Part shown: positions 8,938 through 54,841 of the stretch, piece after piece | How positions within the stretch are numbered: position 1 is the stretch's first letter | Layout: each line of letters begins with the position of its first letter | Assembly: GCA_959347315.1 (NCBI GenBank) | Contig: OY365810.1 | Location: 3,482,467-3,546,466, forward strand | Origin: Bimastos eiseni | Lineage: Eukaryota > Annelida > Clitellata > Crassiclitellata > Lumbricidae | Direction: 5' to 3' | Length of the DNA: 64,000 nucleotides | Position numbers and translations under genes: made by a program | The notes under the pieces: generated by a model | Database searches by the model: none | The model's input: only the letters and a program-made list of their open reading frames with translations | What the model was told of the DNA's origin: nothing

Positions 8938-11900
8938 TTAAAATTCGCGCACGTTTGTAACCAGCTTAATAGAGCCAGCATTGACATAAGGTCCGTGATC
9001 CGGATTCTGGTAAATACCAACGTCTATGTCAATCGAGGAGGACTTATGTGATGTGTACTCGTTCGAGTGTGAACTTGCTTCCTGTACCACTGGTTCTTGG
9101 ATATTCATGCGCTCGTATATGGCAGGAAGAGGTCTTGATTGATACCCGAGTGAAGTGTAGTATGTGCGATCTTGTAAGGGGATCATATGCTGATCAAATG
9201 GAGGAGCTTGGTGCTCTGCATTGGGCTGGCTGGTGTTGTTGAAATACTGTGATCTATATTGGATCTCAGACGGAAGTGGTCTGTTTACTTGTAGGCCAAT
9301 GTTTTCGATATCGACTTGGGTTTCAATGATCTCAATACTCTCGTAAGACGATAAATGTTGGTCTGCAAGTAAAAATCGTGCAAATAGTTTAGTGGAATCC
9401 AGACATATAGCTGCTAAAATCTATTTACAGCGTAGAAGTAAAGGGAAGCTGCCAAGCTGTTTCACATTCAAGCAATCCAAATTGGGTCATCGATGTTTAA
9501 TCTTAAGTAAACCTGCAAATACCGCAATTTATCAACTATAAATAGAGGTGTCAGGGTTTATTAATGGTGGACCACTGACAAAATATTCCAGCAAAGGACG
9601 GTCTGAGTGAAAAACCGGAGGATAGTCAGGACGCATTCTTTAGAACCATGCCCATAAATTGCTGACAAAACTAAACGACGTAAACGTCGTGTGGTGCATT
9701 ATGTCAGCACCCAGTCCTAATCTTAATCGTCATTTCCAAAAACAACCCTAGGATAGTGAGGATTTTGAACTGACTCTCATGCTGCTTGCACGGCAATTTT
9801 GATTTCACTATTGCACTTTATTCTCAAAACATGTAGTCTTTTGACAAGTTTTCGCTGGCCGGAAGGACACTGATTCAACTGAAAAAATCTAGAATTAAAA
9901 TTTGGTCACTTATTAAAAGACAACAGATAATAACGGCAATGTAGGCCTACGCGTTGTCTCTAGAGTCCGTAGTAGAAGTGGTGGCAATGGTGGCAATGGT
10001 GGTGGTATTGGTGATAGTGATGTTAGTGGTGTTGGTGGCGGTGGTGGCGGCAGCAGCAGCAATGTCATCAGTGGTACATAAAAAATTATAGTTTCTTGAG
10101 TTAAAATGATTAGGCCCACCTGCATTTTCCTGTTCTGTAGTTACGGCATGCTGTGGCATCGTGGCATCTCGACATAATCGGACTAATGCGACACAAAATA
10201 AATTTCCAATATAAAGAATAATCACTTTTTATTAATGAAGTATGTGTTCTTCTACATATCTTGACACTTGTCTGTTGAATCTAACGATCTTCATTCACTG
10301 AATGGATTAATCTGGGAAGTATTCTATTAAAGTGAGACCAGTAGGAGCAATCACAAATCAAACATGTCGTTTGTAAAGCTCACTTATGACCATAATTACA
10401 ACATTTACAACTAGCATATCCCTCATGTATATCCTTAAAACGTGAACTTGTCACTCAGCTGTACAACTGAAGGTCAAAAGCTATTGAGATTGCTAGTGAA
10501 TAATATAGTGTTGTTAGCAAAACTGGACTTGTTCGACCAAAATAAACAATTTTAATAGAAGTTGTCGGCCAATGAAACCATTTCCAAATCCAAGTGTTCT
10601 TCAAAGTGTTCTTTAGGGATCCTAATATAATAAACACCGGATGAATAGGTGCAAGTTGGACACATGTCCTGTAAGCAAGGTCACACTTGCAATTGATGAA
10701 TAGTTTCATCTGCATGTAGTAAGAACTTTATTCGTTAGCTATTATATGCAATCAAAATCATATTAGACAAGTGATTGATTGATCAAAATAATAACTATTC
10801 TCGCAACTTTATTTATAAATAATAAGAGAGGTTGCGCATCGAACACAATTCATCCTGAATGGCGTGCCATACTTTCGGGTCAGCATATTTTATCGAGAAC
10901 ATTCTAGTGTTAAATGGAGATTGGTGTACAGTTAGTTATATTAGGATTACCAACTATTGTAATTTATTTCAGACGAGAAGTAAGAAATGAGAAGTAGTCG
11001 TCGAGTATTAAAGATAACTGCCTGTAGGTGTATTTATACATGAATTTCCTGTTTTGGTAAATCATTTACTGGTCTTACTTTAGTATACTTGTATGCATCC
11101 TCACTGAGAGGGTGAAAAGGGACAAATGACCCAGGCCAACGCCCCCCAAATAGGGCCCCACCCTTTGATTATTTGTAAAAAATTTGCTGTAATTGTTAAC
11201 AAATTTATTAACAAAGCATATTTGCTTTTAATAACTATATTTCTATTTCTTTAAAATTTCTACTTTAACATTTTCAATTAATTCTTAAAAGGGCTTTTCT
11301 GGAGTTTTTGCTAGCAAAAGAATCAATAATTGAATCAAAATCTAAAGTTTTGGCCTACTCCGCGTCAATGGCAAGTATTGACAATCCATTCAACTCTGTT
11401 TTGACACATTGTTGCCCGCTGATAGTTTTAATACACTGAATGATCTCTCTGCACTTGCAAGCTGGAAGCAAATAAAATCTTCATGGCAACAATTAAATTG
11501 GACAAGAGATTTAGTAGGGAAATAATTTGCAGTTTCTTTAACAACTGAAAAGGTTGAGTAATTTTGGGCCATATTTTTCGGATTTTAATGAGTCAACCTC
11601 GTTTATTAAACACTGCATCAAAACTTTTTAAGTCCGGTTACAACGGAATGAATAATTCCATAAAATATTCCATCTCTGAACTCATCCCTTGCAGACTTTA
11701 CAAGTAAAACTGTTTCAACAACTGCGTCATGTGGGTTCAGTGCGTGGAATTTTGCAACATGTTCTAGTACTAAATATAAGTATTACAGTATACTGTCCAT
11801 CAATCTTTCATACATACTCAAAGATTCAGATTGTACCCGGTCCCCACTTTCCTCTCGACGGGCCTGCGTGTATGTTGTTAGATAAATTATGGTTAGTGGA

Positions 11901-14900
11901 TGCACGGTAACCAATACAGCAGAGCGAATACAACTCTAGCTGCAATCGAACCAGTGGCGTAGCTAAGGGAGGGCGAGGGGGACGGACCGCCCCGGGTGAC
12001 AGCATATGGAGGGTGACACTATGTCACCTCCAACAAAATTTTTCAGCCAGGCTAAGGTGCGAAAATAGTCTGAAAATAGAATTGTGAAAAAAAACCCAAC
12101 CAACACAGGAAATGTGACCGTTATGACGTCACATATTTCGAATTTGAATCTATTAACCGTCGAAAATATTGTCTGAGCGAGTACAGCTCTTTTGGTGAGT
12201 CATTTTTCTTATATTTTTCTTATAATTTATTTCGAACAATGTTCGAAATAAATGACGACCATGGCTTTGTCGAATTATATGAAAGAACGTCGACGACAGC
12301 ATAATATCAATGGAAGCTGTCGAAAGAAGACAGCTTCCATTGATATTATGCTGGGCATGTACAGTCCGCAAGATGCAAGGATGTACAGTTGACAAAGCAG
12401 TTGTTTACCATTTACAAACTACAATGGACATTTATGAAATTTTCGTAAAATTTATAGGACTAAAAAACAGAAAGTAAAATATAAACAAAAGAACTTTTTA
12501 AAAATCTTTGGATTTGAACTATTTGTTTTGTGGTATTGGATTCGGATTTTGTCTTGGATCATACATGTAAGCAGTAACGTACCGGTCAGTAGAGTAAAGT
12601 AGAGCCTAGAGGTAGAGTATGTATGAAAATTTTGCTACACCTAACCATTCAGCATAGGGTCGTGTGGGGTCACTGGGGTGACATTTGAACGGACCGCCCC
12701 GGGTGACGTTTACTCTAGCTACGCCACTGAATCGAACAATTAACTGAAGTGATTAAACCATTATAATTTTTAACGCGCATTCAAACCCACCTTTGAGTTT
12801 CCAAATGGCTCCAGCGAACATCATCGAAATAAAAAGGCCACATATTAAACCAGTGACAATCGTAATTATTTGAGCGGTAGATAAACCTATAAACAGAAAC
12901 ATATCCCAGATAACCACCCACAGCAGGTCGACGTCGGTAACACGTCCACAAACTCATCAGTATCCGACGTCTGACCGACGTCTTGCCGCTCAGCGGGTGC
13001 TCAGATATCCGGCGAGTTTTTCAGACGTCGGCTGACGTACGTTTCCGACGTCTCTAATACACGTCGGTCCAACGTCGGAAAACGCCGTCGGTCGGAAACC
13101 TACGTCGGGCCGACGGCGTTTTCAGACGTCAATCCGACGTCTTTAATTCACGTCGGTTAGACGTCAATATTTCACGTCGGTTCGACATCAGTTCAAATAT
13201 CAAGCCAGTGCTTCAGTCAGTTACCGTGCCCAATGCATGGTACCCGATTGCTTTATCAGTCAAATTGTCCACTGTTACAAATGAAGAGGCCTACAATGAT
13301 TATAGACAATATCATTATAGTGTTTGGGCTCAGATGAAGACTTTTGTGAAAAGGTAGATTTAGCTCTCACTCAGTCTTTATTCAACATCAGTTTAATAAA
13401 TGTATCAGTACATAAAATGCAATTTATGGGGTTCAAGAAAACCAGAAAACCCCAAACAGAAAACTAGAGGTAAAGGACTTCTCCAATGCTTTGCTCTAAG
13501 CAGATTTGGGTCTACTCTAATCACATCTTGGCCACAGCTGTTGGGGCAGGTATGTGTTATTTATAGTAGGCCTAGTCACAATCTAATGTTCATCATCTTT
13601 ATGCACACAATGATAGTTTGTAATGTTGAAGTAGAACATAGAAATCTATAATATGTCATTTTAACTTTATATACAACTCAGTTTCAATTCCATTTTATTG
13701 TTTCAATAGTAGTCTAATCTTCAGATATAACAGGTAATAATCATAATAAACAGGCATCAATAAAATAACACATTGGAAGCAATAAGAACCCAGTTGGGAC
13801 TGTCTCAATTTACCTTGACATTGGAGGAAATTCTTATCATATTGGTACATAAATACACGCGTTTGCACAGATTCAATTTGAATATATTTGTTCTGCAGGA
13901 TAAGCCTAGTGCAGGCATTGAAATAAAGGCTGTGCTTTAACTTACAAAGTATGCATATATCACAGCAATTAACTCACAAGGGCACTCTGGTACAGCTACC
14001 TAGGGCAATGTGGCAGTTTATAATGTTCTTTATATTTATGCAGATATTATGAGTTCAAAGCGTTCTCAATCTTGACTTGTTCGATGAGCATGAACTCTTC
14101 CCTGTAGCAATTCTGAGGAGGGGCACTTTCGTGAGAAGCGTCTCAATTTGACTCCTCACAAGCGACTCCAGTTCTTAATTTACAGGCATGGAGGAGTTGC
14201 TGGAGCTTTTGACCATAGTGTTGAACACTGCTGATGGAAAGGTAGGCCCGTCACACAGCGTTGATTACGGACGCTTGGAGGTCGAAGATGCCATTTTCGT
14301 TCTGGTTCCTATCCTTTCTTTTGGATGCACCAGGTACGTGTGTCGTTTGCAGCCCCGTGTTCTCTCTGTTTGTTGGAGGGAACAGGTCTGTGGGCATTCG
14401 GAACAGTCAGCTTCTTGCTTCTCAGAGACTCTTTGCAAGCCATGCTATGCGAATACTTAGCTATAGGCCTACAGACAAAACAAAAAAAGAAAACAGCATG
14501 TAGAAGGCAGCACAAATTCACGAATCATAAATGCTAATCCATAGCCAGCCCCGTTGTGGGGACCACGGCACGGGACATATTTGTGAGGTCCTGAATCGTG
14601 CGTAGGAGCATGTGACCTGTTACGTAGTCATGTGGCAGCACATGGTTCTGTATTTTTTTCACCAAGAGAATCCAAATGGTAGTATGCCTTTCCTTAACCA
14701 ATTCCTATGCTTGGGCTCCTCAGATAATTTGTAACTAATTCACGGATATGGATAACTATTAAGACTCGTGAATTAGTGACATCATGTCAACTAGCGCTAA
14801 TCAATGAAAATATACCATACAATAGCTAGGTGGTGCTTGGATGATTTTTACCTTAATGATCTGCTGGTCTTAGTGGCTACTAAGAGAACAGGGATTCAAA

Positions 14901-17900
14901 TAAAAATGCTAGCCAGTAACATCAAAAAGCATGATAATTCCACTATGATGCAATATCGGGCTTTTCCAGCGTTGGGCCCGACCTTCTGGAATGGGCTTCA
15001 CCAAGAGCTATGCCTCCTGCCTAGAAATGCCCCGCTTGCATTTTGCTCCACATTTAAATCCGTATTTTCAGCCGTTGTCAGTCCAGGAACGCCTGCGAGT
15101 AGGTATTTTGAAGGGGCGCTTATTAAGTTCACATTGATTGATTGATTTCACATTGATTGATTGAATTCTTTTCGGTATCTTTCAGCCTTTTCTGTGTCTT
15201 TTCGGTGTTTAGTGCTACCCCAGATAATGTTTGCGAAGATTGCCTGATGTGATTGGTAATGAATATTACGCCTAAGAATATTACGCAAAGGATTAAGGAT
15301 ATACGATCAAAATAACGTTTAATCAGGCCCAACGTAACGCTGCTATAGCAGTTGTAACGTTTTAGTGATAAATATAAGACAGCGATGTGCATACCTCATT
15401 CAGCGCTACTTCACAAAAGAACGATCACGCATGGCATCAATTTAGAATGACCGGCCATTAGCCCGCAGATGATTCGCTATCGCTCGGCCACGTGATCTAA
15501 CTCAAGCAGGCCGCTGCCTCCCGCACTGCCAACGGAGCAGGAATTTTCAGGCAGAGTCCCTCTCGTCGGGTTGAAAGCTAAACCTACGAGCACCCTACGA
15601 AATGCCGCGCAACGATGAGTTGCCGATGAAGAAGACGCCAATTTGACGTCGGTCCGCCGAGCACTGGTTTACTCGGATGTAATACAGATTTTACTCAGAA
15701 CTATCCACGGAAAGAAAACAGGCTTCATTATAAATTATGCAGATTTCAATCAATGAAATTGTCTAAGCCAATTCTCTACTTAAAATAATAAGAATGTCGT
15801 GAATCAGTTCAAAATTCAAGTCGCTTAAGGAAATTCAATTTTTAAACTATAATTATTGTATTGCATTTAGGCATCTATATGCTTTCTACATGTAGTAGGA
15901 TCAATCACTTAGAAGCACTGCCAATCCGCAAGGCCAAGCGACAAGAAATATGGTTTGAGAAAGGATAAATATTCTGTGGTCCAAACTTCGACCAAAAACA
16001 AACGAAAATTTTAATTCTATGGCCGAACCCATACAAAATTTATCGCGTGAAGGTCTCTGCGCCACCAATTTCGCATGCGCACTGTTAAAAATACCTCAAA
16101 TTTGTAATATATGCGTCGCAATGATCGTTTAGGCTCAGATTAGTAGGCATCGTGAGGGTCGGTTAGTGACTGAGTTAAAGTTAGTGTCGTTTCTAAACAC
16201 ATAATAAAATGTATTTTCGCTTTTAAGCAGAACTTTCAGCCGCACAAGTTCCACGCTTTGAAAAAAGCAGATTATATAAGACTGCCAGATAGAATTATAT
16301 GGCTTACAGAAGGAGAAAGTGTAATACAGAGAGAGAGACAGAGACAGACAGAGAGACAGAGACAGAGACAGAGACAGACAGAGAGACAGAGACAGAGACA
16401 GAGACAGACAGAGAGAGAGACAGAAAGACAGAGAGACAGAGACAGAGACAGACAGAGAGAGAGACAGAGACAGAGGCAGACAGAAAGAGAGAGACAGACA
16501 GAGACAGACAGAGACAGAGAGACAGAGAGAGACAGAGAGACAGAGACCGAGAGACAGAGACACAGAGAGAGAGAGAGTAATTGAAGCAAAAGGAATAGCA
16601 AAGGGAATAAGCTAGAACGGAGAACCAATCGATTGAAAGAGCGAAGTGGACGGTGGGTGGAAGCTGGATGAGGTCGAAGTATTGCGTCAATCAGATATTC
16701 TGCGAAACAACCAATTTAACGTGAACTCATTGGATTGCGGAGTCGCCAGTTTAGGTTCGCTCAAAATGGACCTCATGCAAGACAATGCAGAATATATACT
16801 TACGAACTCTAACTACGGCGAAACATAGGCTTAAAACTCCGGTAGAAGCATCACGGGATGCAAAAGAAACAAAATATGTAAAATACAGCAGAATATTTTA
16901 CAAATATTCACGCTTACAATTGTATAATAATAAACAATAAAATAATAGATTTTACAGACCTATCTGAGAACTCGGGATGATAGCAAGAATGGTGACTGAT
17001 GTGGAAATGCTTTTTTCTTTCCCGATTGCGTAGTTTGTAGCCGTGCATTTGTAAGCGTGGTTTTCCATCGCATGGCTGTCCAAGGGCAGAGTTGACTCTT
17101 TCGATATAACACGATTTGATCTAAGGTCCGTCCATTCATACGTTGGAGGTGGGTTTCCCTTTGCATTGCAGAGCAGAACGTCACCAAGGGTGTAAATGTC
17201 TTTCCTTGGTGTGATGTCAGCAGCTTCTGGTTCAACTTCGTAAAGTTTACAAACAAGTTATTCACACTATAGCTCAACCGGACAACTCAAACAAAACATT
17301 ATCCAATTTTTCTACAAAGTATATCTGAGACTTGCTGTGAGTACTGTTTAAAACCAGCTCAGAGCTCATTATCTCAATATTATATTGCAATTTGCAGCAA
17401 AAGCAAAGACGTAACAAAACAGACTCCAGCAGGTGTTTAAGAATATTATTATGCACTTCTGGCCGCAGATGACTTCGTTGATCTGAGCTTTGTAGAACAT
17501 TGGAGCCAATGTTCCAATGCTTATACCATGTGTTGTCCTACACACAATAGTCTTTTGTATGTCTAATTACCGTAATAATTCAATGGCAGCAAGCCATTAC
17601 ATGGTGCACAATTGCTGTAAGTTATGATTCAAGACGATAAATAACTAATTGAGACAATCTCTAGACTTACTTACATAATACGTTGATTCGATGTCTGCAT
17701 TGGTCTTCATAAGTTGGAGCATTGATGGCCTTCCTTACATCTGTCTGATTTTCATGGAACATAATAGTCTGATTAAAGTATATCGTGCATATGTAGGTAG
17801 CGTTATTTTCGCTTCTCGTCGCATTCATTTTGAGGACCGAAATTACGTGCGAACTGTTAGAAATAGGACTGATATTAGGAACGAAGTGAGAATCTATTCC

Positions 17901-19343
17901 ATCGTCCATATCATACTTTATAGTCGGAGCTATGCTGCCAACATATTCAACACTGCAATTTAACTCCAGATATCGTCCCTCAACGACATTTGTTTCGACT
18001 GGACTGCACAAAGGATCGGCAGCTGTAAGCAATAAAACCGTTTTCAGTGTTTAAACGTCAGAATGACTATTATTTTACAATAAATGTCCTGAAAATTAAT
18101 CTGAATTGAAATAATGTTAACTAAATAGTATATCTAGTAAGCCCTATTGATTATCTTTAGCGCCGTAACAATGAAGCCAATTCTCGAATAAAATGAATGC
18201 GTTGAAAGGATTAGTATTAGTTGGAGAAGTAGTCCTAAAGCCAATAGCTCGAAAGGTTATTGTTCAAAAATTTCTCATCAATCATGGTTTATGTAGCCAA
18301 AAAGAAGGTCATGCGAAGGTGAGTGGCGATACATGGCTTAGGTTATACATAACGCCGATGAACCTGAAGACATCAATGGAAATAATTGAATGTTTATGAT
18401 TATAAATCTTTAAGAAACTTACCAAGTACAATCACCTGAGCAGAACTAACGAAATAGTCACTTCCATGTTTTTGAATGCATTTGTAAGTTCCCGCGTCAG
18501 CCTTTCCCGAATAGGGTTTACTCAGAATTGATAGTCCATCTGCTGTGCTATGGATTTGAAAGTCTCTGAATTGAGCAGGAAAATGTGTTCCGTTGTATAT
18601 TTCCTGATCTGAATATTCACGCAGTCTCAGAAACCTCCATGAAGGTATAATTTTGACTGAATGATCACACGTTAGATTGAACTGTTTCCCAGCGATGACC
18701 GCTGTGTTTGATGGATAGATTCTTGCATTACTCTGGCCAGCTATGTCAGAAGAAATGGGCACATTACGTTGTATGTAAATTTGAGTAGCGGTATTCAGAA
18801 ATAGTTCTATGGTAATTATGAATAAAAAAGTTTGAAATAACACAGAGTTTAGGCGTGTCCGCGATTTCTGCAGCATTCCGCTTGTTGAATGTCCATTGAA
18901 ACCTTCATTTAATATTATATCTGATTCATTCCAGTGATGTTCATCTTATCATTATCATCTTACATAAACGACTTGGTCAGAAATCATTGTTTAATGTTCA
19001 GAATTATGCTTAAATTACCTTTGTCAGTGAGTGCAGCTGTTCCTAACTGAAGTTTTTTTTGGGAGTTGACTGGATTTACTTTTAGTTACTTGTTAGCTTT
19101 TAAAAGATGTGTTTCAACATGATATCATCAGGAATTACTTGAACAGATTATTTGATTCATCTTTACAATTACAGTTTTTGTACTCATTTGCTTCTAATAT
19201 CTCGTTGCAATTTGCAAGCCACACGGAAGCATCATGAACGCATGTCAATATTGCAAAAATATAATCATCTTTGCTTAACATACATGGAACATAATATACT
19301 TACCAATTATTGAAATTGATAAAAGAAATGTAATTAGAAGCAT
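8938..19343 (-). CDS. Receptor C: three-Ig receptor with ITIM-like/YxN tail
   Basis: Exons: leader 19343-19304 ([13 protein letters not shown]), Ig1 18740-18423, Ig2 18022-17675, Ig3 17235-16960, TM 12886-12791, tail 9362-8938. Every junction is phase 1, giving 500 residues without a stop. Ig1 has LTC...W...DAGTYKC. Ig2 has LNC...YIC but lacks the core tryptophan (IKYDMDDG). Ig3 has LLC...YEW...YKC. The TM exon carries [16 protein letters not shown] and a basic end (WKLK). The 140-residue tail has SSYESI (ITIM-like), QYFNN, IYERM (YxxM), IYQNP and PYVNA (YxN, Grb2-type). It is probably a type I surface receptor that signals through SH2 proteins. The methionine ahead of Ig1 in the same exon frame (18876) is not the start, because the acceptor at 18741 follows it. 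Its divergent partner C' starts 2.2 kb away. The function is inferred from architecture only. Confidence 0.85.
9965..10070. repeat. GGTGGT-type simple repeat
   Basis: Degenerate trinucleotide tract of GGT, GAT and GGC units within the last intron of receptor C. Open frames through it are low-complexity artefacts. Confidence 0.8.
11110..11572 (-). pseudogene. Second hAT transposase fragment
   Basis: On the minus strand a short frame contains [14 protein letters not shown], matching the start of the hAT C-terminal dimerisation domain. The adjacent sequence near 11130-11165 (CCCCCCAAATAGGGCCCCACC) is GC-rich like hAT non-coding ends. No other transposase domain is intact. It lies in the last intron of receptor C. 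Confidence 0.5.
11952..12729. mobile_element. Non-autonomous hAT element with perfect TSD
   Basis: A 778-bp element with terminal inverted repeats starting CAGTGGCGTAGCTA, extending to a shared CCGCCCCGGGTGAC block at both ends. Perfect 8-bp target duplications AATCGAAC lie at 11944-11951 and 12730-12737. No transposase is present; internal palindromes include the hairpin annotated below. It lies in the last intron of receptor C, just downstream of the TM exon. Confidence 0.9.
12298..12352. repeat. Perfect 24-bp hairpin inside the hAT element
   Basis: Two perfect 24-base inverted arms (12298-12321 and 12329-12352) separated by a 7-base loop GAAAGAA. A second palindrome, TTTATTTCGAACAATGTTCGAAATAAA, split around 12237, lies about 60 bp upstream. 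Confidence 0.9.
12920..13200. repeat. CpG-rich ACGTCGG repeat block
   Basis: Dense degenerate copies of GACGTC/ACGTCGG in both orientations, including the near-palindrome CGCCGTCGG...CCGACGGCG near 13082-13125. Base composition differs strongly from the AT-rich surroundings. It is probably a subterminal region of an unidentified mobile element. A single related GACGTCGG copy occurs near 15647, but I cannot define element ends. Confidence 0.6.
14944..15170 (+). pseudogene. LINE 3'-end fragment with TTGA tail
   Basis: Encodes a remnant of the conserved C-terminal region of CR1/L2-like LINEs ([15 protein letters not shown], then a FKSVFS segment) and ends in TTGATTGATTGATT repeats. It is heavily 5'-truncated. 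It lies in the intron between Ig3 and the TM exon of receptor C. Confidence 0.5.
15995..18907 (-). repeat. Inverted repeat 1, left arm (Ig1-Ig3 of C)
   Basis: Almost identical, in reverse complement, to 22307-25055. It contains the three Ig exons of receptor C, their introns, and about 960 bp beyond Ig3 including a CAGAGA microsatellite. Outside the arm the two loci are recognisably homologous but diverged. The two arms differ by scattered single bases, by Ig1 isoleucine to phenylalanine and Ig3 leucine to valine changes, and by microsatellite length. Confidence 0.95.
16329..16577. repeat. (CAGAGA)n microsatellite, long allele
   Basis: About 250 bp of CAGAGA/GACAGA repeats inside the left arm of inverted repeat 1. 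The equivalent tract in the right arm (24636-24732) is only about 100 bp. Arginine/glutamate or serine/leucine frames across it are artefacts. Confidence 0.95.
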
Positions 19344-19504
19344 TGCTCTTCTTAATAAATTATTTGTATTTCCCTTAACGGCAATGCTTCAAATTTTCTT
19401 TATCATTGCAGCCACGAAGGATGTGACCAGCAGAGCCATCTATCTGATCTATACAACATCATATGACACACAAATGTTGTAAGCAGTCGTCGATCTACGT
19501 CATA

Positions 19505-19595
19505 TTTGCCATAATGAAGCCTTCAAACGGATATATGTTGCAGCCAGGCAATTGCGTTAGCTTTTCATTTCCACTTTTGGCTTAATTTACAATTA
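19505..19595 (-). promoter_or_regulatory. Promoter-proximal conserved block of C
   Basis: Read on the minus strand it contains AGCCAAAAGTGGAAATGAAA, then CTGGCTGCAACA and ATCCGTTTGAAGGCTT. The same order and spacing occurs on the plus strand at 21338-21430. The blocks sit 162 and 138 bp upstream of their start codons, so they may be core promoter or 5' UTR elements kept since the inverted duplication. Confidence 0.5.
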
Positions 19596-20514
19596 TATTT
19601 ACATTCGTCATAGACGGTAGTTAGGATGGAAGCAAATGGCTAATCGTGGTTTTCAAAACTCGCTGCAAATTGTGTTTTTATCGTCTACCTGATCACCAGT
19701 GCAATAATTTGCGTTGCTGTTCCATTACATGGGAGACTCAAAAATAGTGTCTTTTGCATCAGAGATAGGGATTAATTGACATAAAGTTATCACAATTCAA
19801 ATGACAATAAGAACAAAATAGCAAATCCGTTTTACAAGCAACGTTGACAAACGAGACTCGGCTTCTAACGCTAGAGACATGAAAACAGAGAAAGTGGTGA
19901 AGATCACAATATTATAACGGCAATTCCTGGTTTTCTGTGCTTCAGCTGTAATAAATTATGTTATTTAAACTGATGCCTGACTCCGCTTTATGACCCAACC
20001 AAGCCTCAGCTACTCTCATAAACTTTGTCTGTTTCAATTTTATCCGAATTAGTCACTTCATGATTCATAAACAACCAATCGATGAACCCTTCAGTGAAGT
20101 CTTAATGAATATCACAATCAATTTTATGAGCTTTGTTGAATTCCGATACGCTAGACAAAATTGAAGTCGCTCTTCTGAAGGCAAGCCAGACGAAGCAGAT
20201 GAGAGTAGGCCTACCGTCTTCACCATGTTTGTCTAAGTCAATAATTTTTCAGGAATCTTGACCAGAATGCTTCGCAATCACCACAACACTGCGCATCATA
20301 CAGTTTGAGGAATTTAAAGTGTGCTATTAACTACAGTAATGCAACATATCACCTGGTCACGCCACACCGAAATATGCTTTTCCAAAATTCAAAATGGACC
20401 ATGTAGCCTAATAGTAATCTCAAACGATACTCTACAACAGAGCGTATGGCACCAATTACTTCGCGAGCGATTCGCCTTTGCAGATCTCAAAGGGTTGTCC
20501 AGAACGGTTTAATT

Positions 20515-42190: not shown

Positions 42191-42800
42191 GGTATTTCGT
42201 GTATTCCATCAGTTTTGCAACCTCATTGCATTGAATACATATCCTTCAACAAGCCAGCCTTTACTGGGAATAAAATTGCTTTTACTGTATTAGTCTGAAG
42301 TATGGGGCCTGTAAAATAACACAGTAAGGCTAGCGGATCTTTTTCAGCTAGACAATTAGTCCCGCTGAGAGTTTTCTCTTTCGGAATAAGCGTTTATGCA
42401 TTTATGCCCTTGCAAACGAAATTACATAGGCCTATGCATGAAATGTATGAATGTGTCACTGTGATATATGGGATATATACACGGGATATATTTAGCTAAT
42501 GAGTGAGCTGACTAAATTCTGTTTTATGTATTCGCACCAGGAATTTTATTGCAGAATCAATTAAATAAGATCTGACAGGGAGATTGTAAGTGGATCTACA
42601 ATAGGAGCACTATACTTCGATAATTAGGCGTAACAATCGCGTCGTTAAACTGATCGAAACCTTTTTAGAATATGTAACCCGCTGTGTAAACAATAACCAC
42701 TAAAATGGTGCCATATTATTGCAGCAGTAGGCCTAGGGTTTATAGGCATTAAATCTCTGGCTTCAAGAGTCAATTAGGCTATCTTGATCTATGCACCATA
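38245..42800 (-). repeat. Inverted repeat 2, left arm (leader to TM of B)
   Basis: Reverse complement of about 44815-49378. All four ectodomain exons and the introns between them match, and the encoded Ig domains are identical in protein. Divergence starts within the TM exon, at codons for TIRHVS in B against TIRRVT in B', and increases in the tail intron. The central 240 bp (42560-42800) is a little more diverged than the rest. Confidence 0.95.
41926..42025 (-). pseudogene. Possible LINE fragment in arm of inverted repeat 2
   Basis: Minus-strand frame with [20 protein letters not shown], resembling the end of a LINE reverse transcriptase (D-R-x-x-W-R-x-L-V). The mirror copy lies at about 45600-45715 on the plus strand. 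The fragment is short and the match is by motif only. Confidence 0.35.
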
Positions 42801-43544
42801 AAATGTTAGACCGGAAGTTCACAAGAATCAAATGTTCCGCAAAGTCCACATTTCGAAAGTCTCCAATCGGTTGATGCTCTCCTCTGTTATGGCCCTCGTT
42901 TTAGATCCACGCTCTATATCAAAAATTTCATGGATCGTTTCTTTATGGGTCTGGTCATTTTTCTCGGCGACTCTCGTAAATTGAACAGGTGTTTCTCATC
43001 TTCCAATTGTGTTTTTGATTTCTTCGTTGCATCTTGCATCCATCTGTGCAATTTTTTTCGCCGACCAATTTAGTCTCATAACTGTCTCTTCTCCTATGCT
43101 TTTCTTCGTTTTGGCCCCAATGTATGTTTGATGTTTATAATATTAGAATGTCATTAGAAGTATGAAGACTGGTATTATGTCGTGCATTCTAAAGGTTAAG
43201 CAATTCACTTCTAATTCCTCCATGGTCCTTTGTTACTGGAAAATAATTTGCCAAAAAGCGGCATCATTAAAAGTGTTGAGCTCATTGTCTTTAATTACAA
43301 CTTCCGCAGCAAAGATCAAAGTATTTCTGCGCTTCATATAGCTCGACATATCGCCCGAGCATCATGATTCTGACTGTAAATAACCAAATGGAATCTGTAT
43401 TTAACTTTCTTTCCTAAATATTGGCGCTATTCAGTTTGAAGCTGAAATGCGAAAATTTTTGTGAAGTGCATGCCGTGAAAATTAGAAATACTATACACAC
43501 ACATTGGGTCAAAAGTACAAGAACCTATATCTGATTCTTATGAT
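42801..43544. other. Spacer of palindrome 2 (divergent promoter region B/B')
   Basis: The non-palindromic centre between the arms. No confident gene is seen. The leader exons of B and B' lie outward on both sides, so both promoters should be in or near this spacer. The same 744 bp occurs again at about 44070-44814, differing by single-base homopolymer indels. Confidence 0.6.
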
Positions 43545-45070: not shown

Positions 45071-48000
45071 AATTGATTCTTCAATAAAATTCCTGGCGCG
45101 AATACATAAAACAGAATTTAGTCAGCTCACTAATTAGTTAAATATATCCCGTGGCAACTGCACAGTGACACATTCATACATTTCATGCATAGGTCTATGT
45201 AATTTCGTTTGCAAGGGCATAAATGCATAAACGCTTATTCCGAAAGAGAAAACTCTCAGCGGGACTAATTGTCTAGCTGAAAAAGATCCGCTAGCCTTAC
45301 TGTGTTATTTTACAGGCCCCATACTTCAGACTAATACAGTAAAAGCAATTTTATTCCCAGTAAAGGCTGGCTTGTTGAAGGATATGTATTCAATGCAATG
45401 AGGTTGCAAAACTGATGGAATACACGAAATACCATGTGGATTATACAATTTCTTATACTGACCGCAAGTGTTTGTAAGTAAGCTAATATTTTGATTGAAG
45501 TTTTTGATGGTAATTGTTGATGTTAACCTTCTAACGTCCAAACGAAGTGAATAGGTAGATCAGCAAGGAATACATTTTTTACACCAGTCAATTTATTTAG
45601 ACCGCTACAGAAGCAATAAGAGGACGCAATTCCGCTACACCAAGGTTTGATCGAAAGGGATGGAGAGCCCTTGTGGACCAATGTCCCAAGAGGAGACGGG
45701 AGGAACTAAGTCTAAGCAAGACATTAGCACACATGCATTATATGGTACATGTTCATTAAATTGATTTACAACATGAGAAACAATAATCTAATATCATACA
45801 CAAATGATTACGAATGTGTGAATATGAGACTTCAACAGACTTTGAAGTATGTCACTTCAAACGGAGAGTGACTCAAAGCATGTCATCAATTAGGAGCGGA
45901 GTAAAACTCAGAATGAAATCAATACCAATTATGGCCAACAATAAAGTCAACGGTAGAAATTTAACAGAAATACTTGCTATAGCTAGGCTTAGATAGATTT
46001 TCTGTGTGAGCTCTGAAGGACAAAGAATCATTGACCGTTGATGAAGCCGTAAACATCTTCAATTAATAGTTCAATACTACATTCTTTCAATTTGATGAAT
46101 ATGGCACGATTCAATGAATCAAAGGAAACAGTGAGGAGCGCACATAAAGCTCCATATCTCACCAATGGGGTCTTAAATTGACAATTAATGAAAGGCAACG
46201 CCCTGTACAGGGTGGAAATAAATCGTAAAAACTATCGCGACATTTGGTTGTCTATTCCTAACAACGGTGAATATAAAAACGAAACTAAGTCGCCAGGAAA
46301 GTTATAACAATTTTCCCTGTCTTTAGATTTCACCATTGTAATGTGACACCAACATTACAAACAATTAAGTTTTCAATTTAAATAACAAACTTTCGACTGC
46401 CATTTGGCAAATGTATTTTTGCTCAGACACCGGAAGATCAGAGGACATTTATCCAAGGAACCTTGCAATCATAGTTGGAGAACGGATTTGTTTTACCTGT
46501 GGAATTCCCTCACACGAAGAAAGTATAATTTGGAAAGTTAAGAAGATTGGTCAAGTTACAGAGGAGCTCATATCAAACGGATCCTACGTTACGAAAGCCA
46601 ATAGTTTTATTAATGTCAGTGTTAGTCAGTCAACAACTGGAAACTCAGTGCTCAGAAAGGATCGTGCAGAGTTAGAAGATGGTGGAACATATAAATGCAT
46701 TCGAACGGGTCCAAAGGAATCTGTGATTGGCATTGGAACAGCTCAGCTCATTGTATTTGGTACGTCTTATTGATTAAGCCAAGGAACTCATTCGACACAT
46801 TTCTAACAATAATGCTTATTTTTGAACAAACTCAATTAGGCTTAAATTGCACAAAGTAATAAATGAGTTTTTAACTGAATAATATGTTTCGGTGAAAAAT
46901 TGACTAAAATCCGAAATATATTCTAAGAGTTCTTTTATACTTAAATGACGAGTTGCTTTGGTTCTCCAATCACTTTTAACGAGCTATCATCGTAAAAGTA
47001 TCAAAGGTTTGTGTTAGTGTCAGCTTGGTCCACATTGTCGTCAACACAGCGCAGATTCTACAGCATGTGGGCAACGTGCTCGAAATTTACTGTCAAAATA
47101 GAGACTCCTAATTTCATTGGTGATTTCCTTGAATTCATAGGTGTTAACTAACCCCGATAGGCAAATTATGAAGCACAGAGTGCCTTGATTGATACGCTGG
47201 TAACCCTCTCATATCTTTCAAAATTTGTACCATGGTGCCCAAAGAAAGCATTGTGAAGTTCTGCTCCTCCTTCCTAATCTTTTACAGTTATACAAGGGGT
47301 TGCTCATGAATCAAGACGTAGAATGCGATTAGTTTCAAAAAGAGACTTTATAATCAAAAGACCATATTCACAATTCAGAACCAAAATGTGTTACCAACAG
47401 ATCCAGCTGAGTGGAAATCTTAACGAGAAACAATTCGAGAATCCTCCTCAACAAATATTATTGAAACTAAACTTTGAAACTCACGGTAGAATGACTGGTC
47501 GCTACGTTGTTACGGGAGTAAGACATTGTAAACTAAGGCGCTTGATACCTTAACCCTTACCCCTCCATCTATTATATCAAACACTGTCCACATGTATTGT
47601 ATGCCAAATTTTACTTGAACCGAACGTTGCTTGATCATCCTGGTATCGCATAAGCGCCTCAGGTATGAGGAAATAAATGTGAGCACACCATGGTTCCTAA
47701 CATTTTACGAAACAGACATCAGCAGGGCAAGATTTGTCAAGCAGAAGCGTCAAAACAAAGCAATTGATGTTGGATAAAAAATAATATTTTATTATGTTTG
47801 CTTGCAGGGTCCAAACCAGAGTGCTCCGCAAGTGCGGATGTTATGCAAGATGGAGATTTTCTGCAAGTATGCTGCAGGGTTCGTTACAATGGAAGTCTTA
47901 ACCCAGTGATTAAATGTTCGTCGACTGATGGAAGTAACTCAACAGTTCTTACACACTTCACTGGCCCCAGCAATGTAACCGTTTATAACAAATTCATTTC

Positions 48001-49378
48001 ATCGAGCGACAATGGTAGAAATGTATCTTGTACGACTTACTTTGAACCTCTGGCGTTCATCGACAATCGAACGAACCAACAAAAAGCTACCAACGCACCT
48101 GAATTTGGACACACGTGGATTAATCGCATGAACGTCCAATGTGAGTTTAAATAAGTGCCTTTAAAAGATTTTATACGGGCCATACTGCATGTAAAAACCT
48201 ATCTCAAACCTTGATATCGTTTTTGGCTTATATAAATTCTTATTTCGTGAAGAAGATTGTCATGCGGTCAAGGTAAACCATTTCTATCAAACTTGTTGTT
48301 TGGATCAAATTTTACATACAATTGTCATCCATATTAAAATTGGTTAGTCCTAAAAATTTATGAATCAGGTTTCACATTAAAATTTCAAAGAAGCATAGAT
48401 GTAGAAATTACACAGACTCTGTAATTCCATTTGTGAAGTCTAAACCGACTGCTGGAAACCAAAACTATGACCGAAATACAATATATTGAATCGAAAGCAA
48501 TGCATTTTGCGACTTATGTTGATCAGCCGCAGATGAAGAACGAAATTCAAATCTTTTTGAGAATTTCTGATACCAAGGTGATTGATCCTGTAAAACAATC
48601 TGCAGCAAATGAATCATCAGATCATATCTGAAATCTAGGTCAATATATAAATTGGATCAAATAATCATAGGTTTCTTTAAATTTAGCCGAACAAACTTAG
48701 TGGCCTATACATTTCATACCAGAAATCTGTTCACGTGTATTCTCATAGTAAAAGTTGTTTGAAATGCTATTAAAATGTTGTGTAGTTCCGCCGAAATATG
48801 TAGACATCAATCCACGAAAGGACACTTACATGATTGGTGACGTAATTCGTTGCAACGCCGATGGAAACCCACGTCCTCAATATGCATGGAAGGAAAGTGT
48901 TTCAAACGACGTTACTTTATTGAGCTCTACGTTGACAGTGAACGATATCAAAATGCACAACCGTACATACGAGTGTACAGCCAAAAACACGAAAGGAAGC
49001 CAGTCGACATCGATCACAATTCGTGTCTCAGAAAATATCTCCACAATAATTGGTTAGAAACTTAGAGCGTACTGTACGACGAATGATTAACGCGCTTTCA
49101 ATAATCGTGTATGTTCCAGCTGCAATGCTTTAAATCTAAGTATAAGCCTATTTGTTAAGGGTTAATCATCCGGTGCAGATGTTGAGTTGATTCCGCAAAA
49201 TCCTCATTTCGAAAGTCTCCAATCATTAGATTACAGTACGATAACATACATGTAATTAAGATTCTTGCTGATGTGACCATTTACATGTTTAGGTTCAACA
49301 ATGATGTATAATGGTGTTACCATTGTCGCTGGAGTGCTATGCGCAATTCTACTTGTCGTTGTAATCACCATTACAATT
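44815..49378 (+). repeat. Inverted repeat 2, right arm (leader to TM of B')
   Basis: Mirror of 38245-42800. It carries the leader, Ig1-Ig3 and most of the TM exon of B'. The match ends inside the TM exon. Confidence 0.95.
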
Positions 49379-52300
49379 AGGCGTGTAACAGGTGGGACAA
49401 TTCAAGCATTAATCAACCAACTTTTTAGCTTTTAAATTATGCTTTATGTATAATTTTTTTTCTGGAAATAGATTGATCGTTTTCTGGTGTATCTGGCTTA
49501 ACGTATTTGACTTGACGATTTAGTAATTTAAACTTAGAGTAACCAAAAGATTGATCTATTCAATGTAGTAAAGGCGTTTTACAGTTGATTAAATGTTTAC
49601 AAATTTGTATTCCGAAATATCCGAATATATGGATGACTTGATTTCTATTCAGGAGATTACTTTTATTTCAGATTCTTGTAGGTCTTCCACAGACGGAGAA
49701 TTTGGTACTGGTCCAGACATAGTCCGGAATGCGGAAGGCAAGCAACCTGGTCCATTTTTATTCTTGCAATTAGCATTGCTGGTTTATGAAGTTCTTTCTG
49801 ACTGTCCAACTAACTTCAAGTATAAACTAAAATAAAGCTTTTCTTCATTAAAATTTTAAGCGTGGCCTATGAGTTGGAATTAAATTCCAATTTATTATAG
49901 CAAATAAATTAGTAAAACTCATTCGATTTTATGTGATTTGATAAAAGATAAATTTAATTTCAGAGTTCGGTCCGATGCAGCCGGAACAACCGTTTGATGG
50001 CTATGCTCGAGCGGAAGACCTTGGCATTGGTAACCAGCCAATTTCAAATGATTAAATGAATCAGGCCGAAATTACATTTCTGCTTATGTTGCACTTTAAT
50101 ACGCCTCATTATGGCGTTACATGTGACTATATGAACAGATGGCCAATTGGCCATGCTTAACCATTACTCTGAGATGCACTACTTAAGCTCAAATAAACAG
50201 GTTTTTATGTGATCTTGGCCACACTGAAGCTTATCCGTGCGTATTGTTGTATACTATCTTTTATTCTAAAGAATGACTCAATTCATGTGAAGGTTCGATG
50301 TTTAGGCCTACTCGGTGTACTGATTCTGTGGTTCCGGCAGAAAAATGTATTATTTTGTCCACGTAACAGACTAAGCGCTGTAACAAATCGGAAGTTTGAC
50401 TTTTAGACCCTTATATAGACTTTTGCTCTCTGACAAATACTCGGGGCAAATTGACCCCTTGCGATTATAAATACGTCGGTCGAATAAAAAGAGGTAGCAA
50501 CGCAGAGTGTGAAAAGGGCTACATATTTGCCACGCTTATGAGGAATTTCTTTGTGGATGTTTTGCCTAATCATTTGAGTTACCCATTTCCTTGTTCTTGT
50601 CATCTAGAACTCCAGGTTACGCGTTACGCAGGAAATGGGAATGGGCCAGAAACACGAAGAGAAGGTGAGAGTGAAAAACACAAAATAACAGATAAATATA
50701 ATTATGCAACTAATGTACACTTTTCCTATCGTATCAGTCTCATGTAGGCATACACATCAGCGATATTGAAAGGGAAAATGTGATGACTATTGATTCAAGA
50801 TAAATATGTTTAATATGCTGAATAAACAATTATTCATTGTTAACATAAACTCCACTTAAATGCGCGCATTTGCCTGTATAAGCGATGTAATTTATTTCAA
50901 TGATATGCGTACAAAGAACTTCATCGGCCGCTAAGACATTTTTGTGACGCTATACATGTAGTTATCCTCGAAATTGCCAATCACAAACATTCTGTTTTAA
51001 TCAGTTAACAATTTATTTGCTAACTTTGATGCTTTGTGTCAAATAAACATAACTTAATCACAAGACAAAGTTCAATATTCATGTCGCAATAGCAAGTAGC
51101 CTAGTTAAATAAGGATAGACTGTCATTCTAAAATGAAAGGTGCCGATTTTGACTTGTGTGAACATCTGATAGAATACTTATAGATTTCCATGTTCTTGGA
51201 ATGTCGTTATTGACATTACATCTGTCCAATAGAAGAGCTAGGTAGCTTACGCTGGCCAGCTATACCTTTGAACATCTCAAAATAATTATCAGTCGTGATC
51301 TTTGTGTATTTAGTTTCTGCTCAAAACTGTACAATGGTGGTATTGCAAGGAGCGATTCCAATCTATGATGAAATCAACTCTGAGGAAAAAGGTTGGTATT
51401 TGAAACAAATGATTAGACTTACTATGGTTCGTTTTTCGGCTGTATAGCGTATGTGTGCTTAAGTACGAAAGTTTAAACACATGCTAAGAACCTCTCATTA
51501 GAAAGAAACTTTTGTTTGCATGTGATCGCCACAATTACATGTATGTAGGTGAGTGGGTAATTCTTTGTCACTACATGCATTGAGATTATAATGTATTGTT
51601 ACACGATATCCCTGGTACTAGACATATGGCTGAATGAAAACTACCTTAATCTGCATTTCTGAAAAGTTGGTCTATTCAATGGCAAAATGAACTTGAAGAA
51701 TTTACCATGTTATTTTTGGGCTTTTATTAATGGGAATTCTTGATAAATTTCTCAACTAATTCCTGTTGATATTTATATGGTCCTATACTTTATTAGACAG
51801 CATGCCAATTTATAATTTCAATGTGATATCCTGTTATTCCCAATAGTGTTTAATCGTGTTTAACTATTGTTTATTGGATGTTCAGCTGCGTCTGCTGAAA
51901 AGTGTGGACGAGAGTTTCCTGTATATGGCAAAGTCAACAAATCTTCTAAAGGTGAATCCAGAGCCTTAATTATAATGTATCAATGATATTTAGAGTCAGG
52001 ATTTGATTGGCATACGTATTATATAGGCCTAATCTTTCTCCTACATTCCTATGACCACTTCTTGCTAATAAGGTACTGCATCAGACTCTTTTCAGCGTAT
52101 ACTCTGATCATTTATTTATTATATAAAACCGAGGCAATTCAAATTTAACAATGATTGAAAACAAGAATTTTAAGCGTGAGTGAAAATAAACGTTGACAGC
52201 TCACCATAGTATGCTCTAACCAGCAGACCTGTGCTTCCCTGCACGAATTAGTAGGCCTACACTAACAGACAGGATGATTTCTGTCGCTGCATTACATTAT

Positions 52301-54841
52301 AAGCATTCCGAAAATCATATTGAATTACAGAGGAAATCGTCGCTGCAAATAATACTTCCGAAGAGTTTCCTGCGTATGGAAAAGTGCAAAAGAAAGATAC
52401 TGGTTGGTAATCTGTCAAAACATTGAACTAAATTATTAGTTAAGTATATATTTCATAGAGTAATAGAAGACTACATGTGCAGCTTTGCAAACTGCTTAAT
52501 GCATACTAAAACCTTCTTAGATTTTCAATCATCGCGATCTTTCAAATGATCAACTGCTGGGTTTTCGTATTCTTTCTACCGTGGCTATAGACCTACCAGA
52601 AATTATATCCGTTCTTACCTCTTGAATAATCACACGGACATTATGGTGTGCTAACAAATGCAGTGTTGACTCGATAATACGAATGAGAATATGCTTAGCC
52701 GGCGAATTTCTGATTACAGTTCTTCTCTTACCTCTTTGCAAACGACCTCCTTCCGCCTCTTCAGTCAGGATTCCAGCAATTTCATTCCATGGAAAACAGC
52801 TGTCCTGAAAGTCTACAATGACATGGTCGTTGCTGCAGACAATGGATATGCAGACAAGGGCTCTAATACTTCTAGACTTCTCTGCTGCTTTTGACTGCGT
52901 AGATCACTGCATCCTACTCAGAGTCCTGCAACATTCCTTCGGCATCTCTGGCACTATCCTCAATTGGTTTATGTCTTATCTCTCTAATCGCACTCAGTAG
53001 GTTTGCATCAACATGCTTGTATCTTCCATCGCTTCTGTGCTCTTTGGTATCTAGCAAGATTCTGTCCTAGGGCCTCTGCTGTTCATCTTCTACACTTCTG
53101 CACTCTCAGCCATTGCTTCTCGCCACGGCGTGGAAATCCACCTCTATGCTGATGACACTCAACTCTATGTACATTTGCGACTAAACGAAATGCCACAGAG
53201 CGACTTCGTGCCTGCATTGTCGACATCATGCGATGGAGTCTGTCTATGCGTCTCAAACTTAACCCGGGCAAATCCGAACTCATCTGCTTGGACCGCTCCT
53301 CTAAGCTTCTTCAGAGCGCTGAACTCTCGCTCTCTACCTCCTCTTCTGTACTCTCTCTCTCCATCACTCGCTGTCCGGGATCTTGGAGTCATCCTCGACT
53401 CAAAACTTTCCATCAAACCTCAAATTGCCGCAATCTCCAGGGCATGCCTGTTTCATCTCAGGAGAATCCGACAGCTTCGCTCTATTCTTGACTCTGCATC
53501 ACTGAAAACACTGATACATTGCCTTATTCTGACGCGACTGGACTACTGCAACTCAGTACTCTATGGCCTCCCTGAATGCACACTGCTTCCGCTAACTAGA
53601 ATACTGCATCAGGCTGCACGACTGTGCCTTGGACTCTCCTACCGAGACCATGTCACACCTGCTCTTCGTTCTCTACACTGGCTTCCTGTCTGTGAGCGTA
53701 TCTGCTACAAGCTGGCACTCCTCATGTACAGAGCGCGCACAGGTCATCTGCCGTCTGATCTGCCCTCCATGGTCACACCTTGCAGCTCTGTTAAAAGCCG
53801 CTCCTCTCTTAGATCAGCCTTTGCTGGAAAGTAAGTTGTCCCTAGTACACGTCTTGTCTTCGGCCGGCGGTCATTCACTGTTGGCGGTCCCTCCATCTGG
53901 AATTCTCTTCCTCCTCATGTTCGCTACTTTCTCAGTGAGACTGACTTTCGCTCAAACCTGAAAAACTACCTCTTCCAGTCTGCCTATGGCTCTTAATGGT
54001 TGCCCGGCTTCAAGGTGTACTTCTGAATTTTCTGTAAGTAGGGCATTATCAAATTGCAGTTGTATTGTATTGTATTATAGTGTAGGCCTATGTCATCAGA
54101 TCTTGACTCAAAAGTCTCTTCTAAAACTTTTTCTATAACAGATCTCCTGTTTCGTCTCTCTTGCAATTTTCCTCTTTGATATTAACCTGCCAACATTTAA
54201 ATCTGGCTTACATTCGGTATTGCTTATCGGTGACCATTGACTGGTGCTATATAAATCCTAAAAACTATTATATTGTTATTGACACATACATTCAAGGTCG
54301 TTAAAGTCCTGTCGAATTTCAATACGTTGGTCTAACCAGGTTGTAACTATTGAATCGACTTGGTAATGCTATGAGGTATTAATTTTCAGACAAGCTGCAA
54401 GATTTCGTGGAATCCTCCAGCACTCTTTCACCCGTGTCCTATCCAGAGGAATTTGAAGAAAGCAAAGAACCCAAACTTTTCGAAGAAAATGCACCTAGCA
54501 GAGGAGTGGTAAGCCACTAATCACGTAAATACACTTGCAAAATCAGGGTACAGTGTAGTTGATCGGCATAGATTACTGTCAAGTTTTGAACATGATGTTG
54601 TGCTCTGCTAGATAGACAAACATTGCTTAGACCTATCATGATAGGTAACGCAGTGCCATAGTAGCTAATTGCTTAGTTGCTTTTCTATCTTCAGATAGTT
54701 GGAGCTGATGGAACAGAGTATCTGGATATGAGATCAGTACTACGTCTAATGCAACCGGAGAATCAAGCGGAAACCTCTGCGCAATCTACAATGTTCACCA
54801 AATCACAATATGCAGAAATTGACCATTTGCACAAATCCTAA
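45434..54841 (+). CDS. Receptor B': three-Ig receptor with multi-exon YLDM/YAEI tail
   Basis: Exons: leader 45434-45473, Ig1 46427-46759, Ig2 47808-48140, Ig3 48786-49052, TM 49293-49391, tail exons 49672-49749, 49964-50029, 51314-51391, 51886-51951, 52331-52402, 54390-54508 and 54695-54841. The sum is 565 residues, open throughout. The ectodomain is identical in protein to receptor B. The tail matches C' exon by exon: the first tail exon is 78 bases in both and shares GPDIV(R/Q)NA; then GYARAEDLG; then repeated IPIYDEI, PVYGKV and PAYGKVQKK; and the end EYLDM plus QYAEIDH. YLDM is a YxxM motif (PI3-kinase SH2 type), and YAEI fits Src-family SH2 binding. The donor at 49750 (GTCCAT) is weak. 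AATAAA occurs 98 bp after the stop. A LINE lies in the intron before 54390. It is a type I surface receptor, ligand unknown. Confidence 0.87.
52790..54085 (+). pseudogene. Truncated, frameshifted CR1/L2-like LINE
   Basis: Reverse transcriptase pieces are spread over frames: [20 protein letters not shown], then [15 protein letters not shown], then [11 protein letters not shown] with the catalytic YADD. The C-terminal segment has [32 protein letters not shown] and, in another frame, a WNSLP-like end, followed by TTGTATTGTATTGTATT repeats near 54060. Stops and frameshifts make it inactive, and the endonuclease is missing. It sits in sense orientation in the B' intron between tail exons five and six. 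Confidence 0.85.

Follow-up and report, generated by a model that had tools for sequence, protein, structure and literature searches.

In a window of 64,000 nucleotides (the whole stretch of DNA analysed here) from the annelid Bimastos eiseni (assembly GCA_959347315.1, contig OY365810.1, called C5 below; C5:3482467-3546466), we found two pairs of receptor genes, C/C' and B/B'. In both, two genes for receptors with three immunoglobulin-like (Ig) domains stand head to head inside an inverted repeat, each arm of which holds one outward-reading gene, and two ectodomains that are identical or nearly so are joined to tails of two different kinds. With six divergent pairs on this one chromosome, it is well supported that the paired design is not a one-off, and we consider the architecture almost certainly real and systematic. 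The four-kilobase identity between the arms of one pair cannot be due to chance. A first-pass annotation of the window had described the head-to-head layout, genes with three Ig exons each and two unrelated kinds of tail recurring in both pairs, and all of these are present.

Two head-to-head receptor pairs lie inside inverted repeats

The inverted repeats were located by a blast search of the 64-kb window against itself. The arms of the B repeat cover positions 38180..42833 and, in mirror image, 44803-49445; those of the C repeat cover 16486-18907 and 22307-24725, extended by 15995-16420 and 24637-25055 (whole arm 15995..18907, mirror 22307-25055). Over 4,174 bp, which include introns, B and B' match without a single difference (45195-49368, mirror 38256-42429). 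Exact identity stops within the transmembrane (TM) exon, whose final residues are RHVS versus RRVT, and the inner flank is about 95% identical. Between C and C' we counted 8 scattered differences in the 1.9-kb, 99.6% identical tract that holds the Ig exons (22364-24298), among them 2 amino-acid changes in the Ig parts compared. The earlier description of the Ig domains as identical in B/B' and near-identical in C/C' stood, but exactness in B/B' is confined to positions 45195-49368. Beside the C tract, an inner inverted segment between the two genes (19496..19674, mirror 21258-21436) is only 74% alike, an older divergence next to a homogenised stretch, and the signal peptides of C and C' are alike but diverged; for these reasons the C/C' pair looks older than its own Ig tract.

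All four genes code for a signal peptide, three Ig-like domains, a TM helix and a tyrosine-rich tail. The signal exon has 40 nucleotides and ends in phase 1 in all four, and the Ig and TM exons are also of phase 1. On the minus strand, C runs from its signal-peptide exon (19304..19343) through Ig1 (18423..18740), Ig2 (17675..18022), Ig3 (16960..17235) and the TM exon (12791..12886) to a single long tail exon, here called tail 1 (8938..9362), with YTSL-x10-YERM and a terminal YVNAG. B has the same order, also on the minus strand: signal peptide (42151..42190), Ig1 (40865..41197, the same in sequence as the Ig1 of B', which was modelled as V-set-like), Ig2 (39484..39816), Ig3 (38572..38838), TM exon (38233..38331, inside which the identical tract ends) and tail 1 (35294..35736), with YAQL-x11-YESL and a terminal YINAG.

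The partners read on the plus strand and end in a multi-exon tail, tail 2. C' comprises a signal-peptide exon (21568..21607), Ig1 (22473..22790), Ig2 (23191..23538), Ig3 (23978..24253), a TM exon (25319..25414), four short tail exons (25753-25830, 26265-26318, 30080-30148 and 30932-30988) and a last exon (33464..33582) with TQYMEM...SQYAEIDH, whose junction to the previous exon is provisional. In B' the corresponding exons are the signal peptide (45434..45473), Ig1 (46427..46759), Ig2 (47808..48140, related to the Ig2 of C and of gene A, see below), Ig3 (48786..49052), TM (49293..49391), four short tail exons (49672-49749, 49964-50029, 51886-51951 and 52331-52402) and a last exon (54699..54841) with TEYLDM...SQYAEIDH; its junction is provisional as well, and a start at 54695 is also possible. 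Downstream of the TM exon we located five exons in B' and five in C', where the first-pass annotation had counted six to seven.

The spliced frames, with GT-AG introns and no internal stop, are open over 504 amino acids in B, 500 in C and 498 in B', this last total being provisional as it depends on one choice of the last tail-2 junction. The frame of C' is open through the penultimate tail exon located. Both B' and C' have a clear last tail-2 exon. Since it seems to start in phase 0 in C' and in the relatives fetched, the models may lack one small linking exon; a search for such a micro-exon in B' and C' gave no convincing candidate. The idea that C' lacks a start codon, suggested by an Ig1 open frame without an in-frame ATG, was rejected since a separate signal exon exists.

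The paired design recurs along the chromosome

The genome (660 Mb in 118 contigs) holds eleven matches to the erythrocruorin linker family PF16915 (best E 1.1e-33), which had no match in 14 control genomes, as fits an annelid; the hemocyanin family matched in none of the genomes searched and is therefore uninformative. We searched the genome with the C Ig3 exon at E <= 0.01, the counts being lower bounds. At least 64 matches were obtained, 42 of them on C5; weak ones may be unrelated Ig proteins. Six divergent pairs on C5, B to G, stood out, each having first a match on the minus strand and then one on the plus strand whose score was equal or almost equal. Tails were assigned to genes by their downstream position on the same strand. 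Pair D (43.43 Mb) has tail 1 at 43427790 (minus) and tail 2 at 43463072 (plus), and pair E (43.56 Mb) has tail 2 at 43553750 (minus) and tail 1 at 43571481 (plus). Pair F (36.27 Mb) has tail 2 at 36265074 (minus), a match of only E 0.69 that is supported by its place and sequence, and tail 1 in an open frame from 36283359 (plus); pair G lies at 43.33 Mb. All five pairs in which both tails were located (B-F) have one tail of each kind, tail 1 lying on the minus strand in B, C and D and on the plus strand in E and F. At the DNA level the arms are 98.2% identical over 1,806 columns and 95.8% over 1,787 columns in D, 99.57% over 2,095 columns in E, 98.6% over 1,690 columns in G and 100% over 2,433 bp in F, a length bounded by the ends of the fetched pieces.

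A probable pair H has tail 1 (43373428, minus) beside an Ig3 exon (43374418, minus) and tail 2 at 43388986 (plus); a plus-strand Ig3 did not appear among the matches to the C Ig3 exon. Other divergent couples were seen at equal score on contig C13, 162 kb apart, and at similar scores at 11.70/11.72 Mb and 42.57/42.61 Mb, and a facing couple (33.4 and 35.0 bits) lies 45 kb apart on contig C11. Equal-score copies on the same strand are present at 43515237/43540771 and, on contig C2, at 23505591/23656106.

The first-pass annotation had named as a refutation the finding that the two arms are one locus; an assembly artefact of this kind would be one locus written twice around gaps. A 200-N scaffold gap does lie inside B/B' (43801-44000), flanked by sequences that repeat each other in direct orientation (42732-43800 and 44001-45070, 1.07 kb, 99.7%). 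This repeated flank reaches from the end of arm B across the spacer into the start of arm B', so both contigs cross the spacer, with parts of both arms in the same orientation. The repeat is an unmerged contig overlap, and the real B/B' spacer is therefore about 0.7 kb (695 nt). Gaps of 200 N flanked by repeated contig ends are found in D and E too, the Ig1 exons of E being missing from the assembly stretch read, and these gaps, together with the mismatch-free arms of B, are what an artefact would have in its favour. C/C', however, has no gap and its arms differ at scattered positions, the outer flanks and tails of the arms differ, and each of the two B contigs carries the spacer. We thus rejected a single-locus artefact, an explanation that we find scarcely credible; the worry is answered for C and largely for B. 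At the D/D' gap (C5 43435708-43437379), the two contigs have 1,216 identical bases in common, beyond which the right one continues leftwards into sequence with no match in the left; a haplotype difference, an insertion or a misjoin may be the cause.

The two kinds of tail carry different tyrosine motifs

Whole tail-1 alignments made with MAFFT misaligned the core, and the cores were therefore aligned alone. The core was counted in eight distinct loci (B, C, D, H, E', F' and loci at 34.75 Mb and 43.498 Mb), leaving out near copies at 35.15 Mb (of the 34.75-Mb locus) and at 43.525 Mb; a second set, also of eight and used with the stricter [LI] ending (the stricter set below), includes the 43.525-Mb copy and lacks F' and the 35.15-Mb tails. 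The pattern YxxL-x(10-12)-Yxx[LIM] was present in 8 of the 8 distinct loci (shuffled mean 0.035 of 8; 0 of 5,000 shuffles reached 8). The canonical immunoreceptor tyrosine-based activation motif (ITAM), YxxL/I-x(6-12)-YxxL/I, was matched by seven of the stricter set, C ending in M (YERM), and by F' too. YxN is present in seven of the same set, the 43.525-Mb copy lacking it as does F'; most tail-1 loci have a terminal Y[IV]N, and B and C have YxNAG. B and C share the tyrosine core, but a plain search gave no significant alignment between their whole long tails; kinship of the two rests on the core motif, which other loci share.

For tail 2 we used 13 last exons (without the 35.15-Mb tails and a single exon at 35.159 Mb) and, read as protein, 14 sequences (12 of 24 genome matches, plus 34.75 and 43.487 Mb). 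The consensus of the immunoreceptor tyrosine-based inhibition motif (ITIM) was found in 13 of the 13 last exons, always as SxYAxI, in the same place and with TxYxx[LVM] before it (shuffled mean 1.4; 0 of 3,000 shuffles reached 13), and the ITAM core in 0 of 13. Tail 2 of F reads TEYMEM...VLYARIDH, which brings TxYxx[LVM] plus an ITIM-consensus site to 14 of the 14 read. The tyrosine distance is 23-32 in the 11 examined, and the first site is TxYxxV in 4, TxYxxL in 6 and TxYxxM in 4 of the 14.

Taken together, these motifs suggest that the signs given to the tails in the first-pass annotation are likely reversed, with tail 1, of ITAM-like spacing, activating and tail 2, with its strictly conserved ITIM consensus, inhibitory, although B' and C' do carry the YxxM that it had noted. 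Wide spacing is known from the ITAM of FcgammaRIIA, the ITAM-like motif of CEACAM3 ends in M, and ITIMs resembling YAxIDH occur in LAIR-1, SIRPalpha and PZR. A paired function of the receptors is likely. Similar ectodomains and two different kinds of tail, as in the functional class of paired receptors, were both found, and an opposite outcome is suggested by the motifs.

Several observations count against matched on/off pairs of this kind. Typical ITAMs have a narrow spacing of 6-8 residues and an acidic residue at position -3. Tail 1 departs from both, with a spacing of 10-12 in 8 of the 8 distinct loci (tyrosines 14-16 residues apart, wider than in most ITAMs) and the acidic residue absent from 7 of 8, being present, by eye, only in F'. 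An ITIM-consensus match is present in tail 1 as well, throughout the stricter set (8 of 8; not, by eye, in F'), so its sign could be either. Concerning tail 2, the immunoreceptor tyrosine-based switch motif (ITSM) is TxYxxV/I, and a true one (TxYxxV) is the first site in only 4 of 14; YxxM, of PI3K type, takes that place in B', C', the 34.75-Mb locus and F. Tail 2 of D', as joined from the exons located (a join that may skip some), matches the ITAM pattern, and no ITIM consensus is present in the single exon at 35.159 Mb, which resembles tail 2. The motif patterns were set after viewing homologous sequences, so the shuffle figures overstate independence and measure motif conservation. Near-copy tails differ by 2 nonsynonymous and 0 synonymous changes in tail 1 and by 2 and 1 in tail 2, too few to give a sign of purifying selection. 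As to the pairing itself, there are scaffold gaps inside B, D and E; the tails of G were looked for and not located; some family members, such as gene A and the direct repeats 43515237/43540771, have no matched pair; and a single search of a protein collection for relatives in other species returned 6,392 candidates, none at E <= 0.001. With the true ITSM so infrequent and YxxM in both B' and C', our confidence in the full paired reading, tail 1 switching on and tail 2 switching off, was lowered, and we now hold it in even balance.

The same paired layout could instead work with the signs first proposed, tail 1 inhibiting through its ITIM-like sites and tail 2 activating through YxxM and PI3K, with a Src-family kinase at YAEI. 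The ITIM-consensus matches throughout the stricter tail-1 set speak for it, as do YxxM in 3 of the 13 tail-2 last exons (B' and C' included) and in F, and the ITAM-pattern match in the joined D' tail. We nevertheless find these signs unlikely, since tail 2 keeps the ITIM consensus more strictly (all 13, in one place, plus F) and ITAM-like spacing marks all eight distinct tail-1 loci versus none of the 13 tail-2 last exons.

Probable concerted evolution of the ectodomains within each pair

Within pairs, ectodomain DNA is 96-100% identical over the parts compared. Between B and C the ectodomain proteins are 31-49% identical, and that of D is 23-41% identical to those of A, B or C. Across pairs, the last tail-2 exons are 40-49% identical to that of B' and the tail-1 cores align. 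The TM segment of C' is nearer to those of B and B' (50-54%) than to that of C (39%), over a short 26-31 residues. Because ectodomains are alike within pairs and diverged between them while tails match across pairs, we infer concerted evolution, in which gene conversion between arms may keep the ectodomains alike.

The near-identity stops at most a few bases from the Ig3 splice donor in D and F (by eye). In G it stops at the end of the Ig3 exon, at about 43329311 (minus), where the minus copy reads, by eye, AAAG followed by GC, not GT; either a GC donor is used in this copy or the copy is damaged. In C and E the near-identity extends about 0.7-0.8 kb past Ig3, and in B it ends inside the TM exon. 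Identity in D/D' is uneven, with 0-4 mismatches per 200 in some stretches and 7-16 in those between them. Near-identity alone cannot separate conversion from recent, independent inverted duplications of ectodomain exons that became joined to nearby tails with neither conversion nor selection for pairing, and near copies on the same strand do occur. Such duplications appear very improbable, however, given that the same two kinds of tail meet in 5 of 5 pairs, that the signal and TM exons of C/C', outside the tract, are alike but diverged, and that the identity in D/D' is patchy.

By profile, the proteins are placed in the immunoglobulin superfamily. Generic Ig models of Pfam were matched, above the curated cut-off only by Ig3 of C' and B' and below it by C' Ig1, C' Ig2 and B' Ig1; B' Ig2 gave no match. 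The predicted model of B' Ig1 is V-set-like, with a mean predicted local distance difference test score (pLDDT) of 69.5 (30-45 in the other four models), and its best fold matches are MPZL1, ZIG-8, MPZ and antibody V domains. No member of the Siglec, CEACAM or KIR families was among the best 60 of 1,874 Ig1 matches in a profile search of the PDB, and Pfam gave only generic Ig. Profile and fold matches of Ig1 include contactin, Robo, pIgR, MPZ/MPZL1, ZIG-8 and antibody V domains, and folds so generic would also suit receptor pairs for adhesion or guidance that feed two different adaptor programmes and serve neither as an on/off switch nor in immunity. We judge this unlikely: many related exons on one chromosome (42 of the at least 64 Ig3-like matches) and concerted evolution are commoner in recognition receptors, and the tail motifs are of the immune-receptor kind.

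For matched on/off pairs, a possible course of events is the following. Copies of an ancestral pair with two different tails would have arisen at several sites by duplication, and the ectodomain module would since have been copied repeatedly from one facing arm to the other by gene conversion. Owing to their near-identical ectodomains, partners would see the same ligand, whose binding would lead to phosphorylation of the tails. Tail 1, with its core and mostly a YxN, may then recruit a tandem-SH2 kinase of Syk type and Grb2, giving activation; tail 2, with TxYxx[LVM] followed 23-32 residues on by [SV]xYAxIDH, may recruit a phosphatase of SHP-2 type, giving restraint, and PI3K where its first site is YxxM. 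The ratio of the two products would set the response. The short upstream region shared by the divergent genes suggests co-regulation, and a use in immunity or self-recognition is plausible, judging by the pattern of the family.

Comparison with known paired receptors

Clustered Ig-like receptors with ITAM- or ITIM-like tails are also found among invertebrates in the Alr system of Hydractinia, whose members bind themselves in allorecognition; we know of no homogenised divergent pairs there. The closest layouts, by analogy, appear to be those of primate SIGLEC11/16 and of Xenopus CEACAMs. In the excerpts of the literature on which this comparison draws, SIGLEC11 and SIGLEC16 are head-to-head genes about 9 kb apart, one inhibitory and the other activating, whose ectodomain exons (about 3 kb) are kept similar by repeated gene conversion (PMC5701461). 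They are vertebrate sialic-acid lectins and a single pair, whereas the worm has six divergent pairs, and an activating member of SIGLEC16 type signals through a separate ITAM adaptor, whereas both worm genes have long tails of their own. An ITIM/ITSM tail set against an ITAM-like tail built into the receptor is rather the arrangement of CEACAM1/CEACAM3-type pairs. Xenopus ceacam301/303 have opposite transcriptional orientations, and conversion ends exactly at the splice consensus (PMC5112662); according to the same excerpt one N-domain exon is converted, as against the whole three-Ig module with its introns in the worm, and the likeness is one of arrangement.

Among invertebrates, the excerpts describe the Botryllus fester (FF)/FcoR genes as adjacent, co-expressed pairs of Ig receptors with ITIM, hemITAM or core tyrosine motifs (PMC12065747, which also mentions that Hydractinia allorecognition candidates bear ITAM/ITIM). 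These may be related in spirit to the worm pairs, but they are described as receptor and co-receptor, with oligomorphic FcoR loci that swap ITIM and hemITAM by splicing, where the worm uses two genes with one shared ectodomain. The oyster receptor CgIgIT2 has five Ig domains, a TM segment and an ITAM in its tail, and, unlike for the worm genes, the excerpt of the review describing it mentions no inhibitory partner with a shared ectodomain (PMC11999971). No invertebrate pair of this layout was among the open-licence literature matches listed (in some cases the best 10-12 of hundreds). The novelty claimed for the layout in the first-pass annotation thus holds for invertebrates within those matches, but homogenised inverted repeats as such are not unique, as the excerpts on SIGLEC11/16 and the Xenopus ceacam genes indicate.

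The analogy suggests that the worm layout is the one that vertebrates use for matched on/off receptors, and that the design arose separately. That a protostome independently evolved a chromosome-scale complex of paired receptors, with ITAM-like and ITIM tails on one ectodomain and conversion between palindromic arms, so that the palindrome keeps on and off matched, is a proposal that we make tentatively and with slightly less than even credence. Paired on/off receptors are mostly known as an immune device of vertebrates, and the matching of partners has been studied case by case. The six worm pairs would be replicate natural experiments, with tract ends at or near splice sites as in frogs, and whether ITAM/ITIM logic has converged could be tested directly in coelomocytes. 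Should the pairs function in allorecognition, or against pathogens that turn inhibitory receptors to their own use, the field would gain an animal phylum.

Neighbouring genes and open frames

Gene A, a related three-Ig receptor gene with a TM exon, lies at 1748..4757 (minus) in the window. No matched partner was found for it, and its tail was found neither in the window nor in the 20 kb searched beyond. Elsewhere on C5, other long single-exon, tyrosine-rich open frames lie at 35158968-35174272 (minus): one (35158968-35159408) has PPKPPR stretches and a terminal VYASIDH, and another has several YxxL-like motifs. These frames read as a wider receptor cluster with more kinds of tail. A long open frame at 34736607-34737404 (minus), near Ig1- and Ig2-like matches, has repeated YLLP/YLVP and YLDL motifs, and an open frame of RING/B-box type (TRIM-like, by eye) at 43408220-43409389 (minus) adjoins the 43.4-Mb receptor cluster. 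Within the window, an open frame at 53055-53834 (plus), in the intron that precedes the final tail exon of B', presumably resembles a reverse transcriptase of long interspersed nuclear element (LINE) type. Near the receptor pairs, at 60076-62994 (minus), a 972-amino-acid open frame holds Mab-21 and Mab-21_C domains, which we take to be those of the cGAS-like receptor superfamily, besides a long unassigned remainder.

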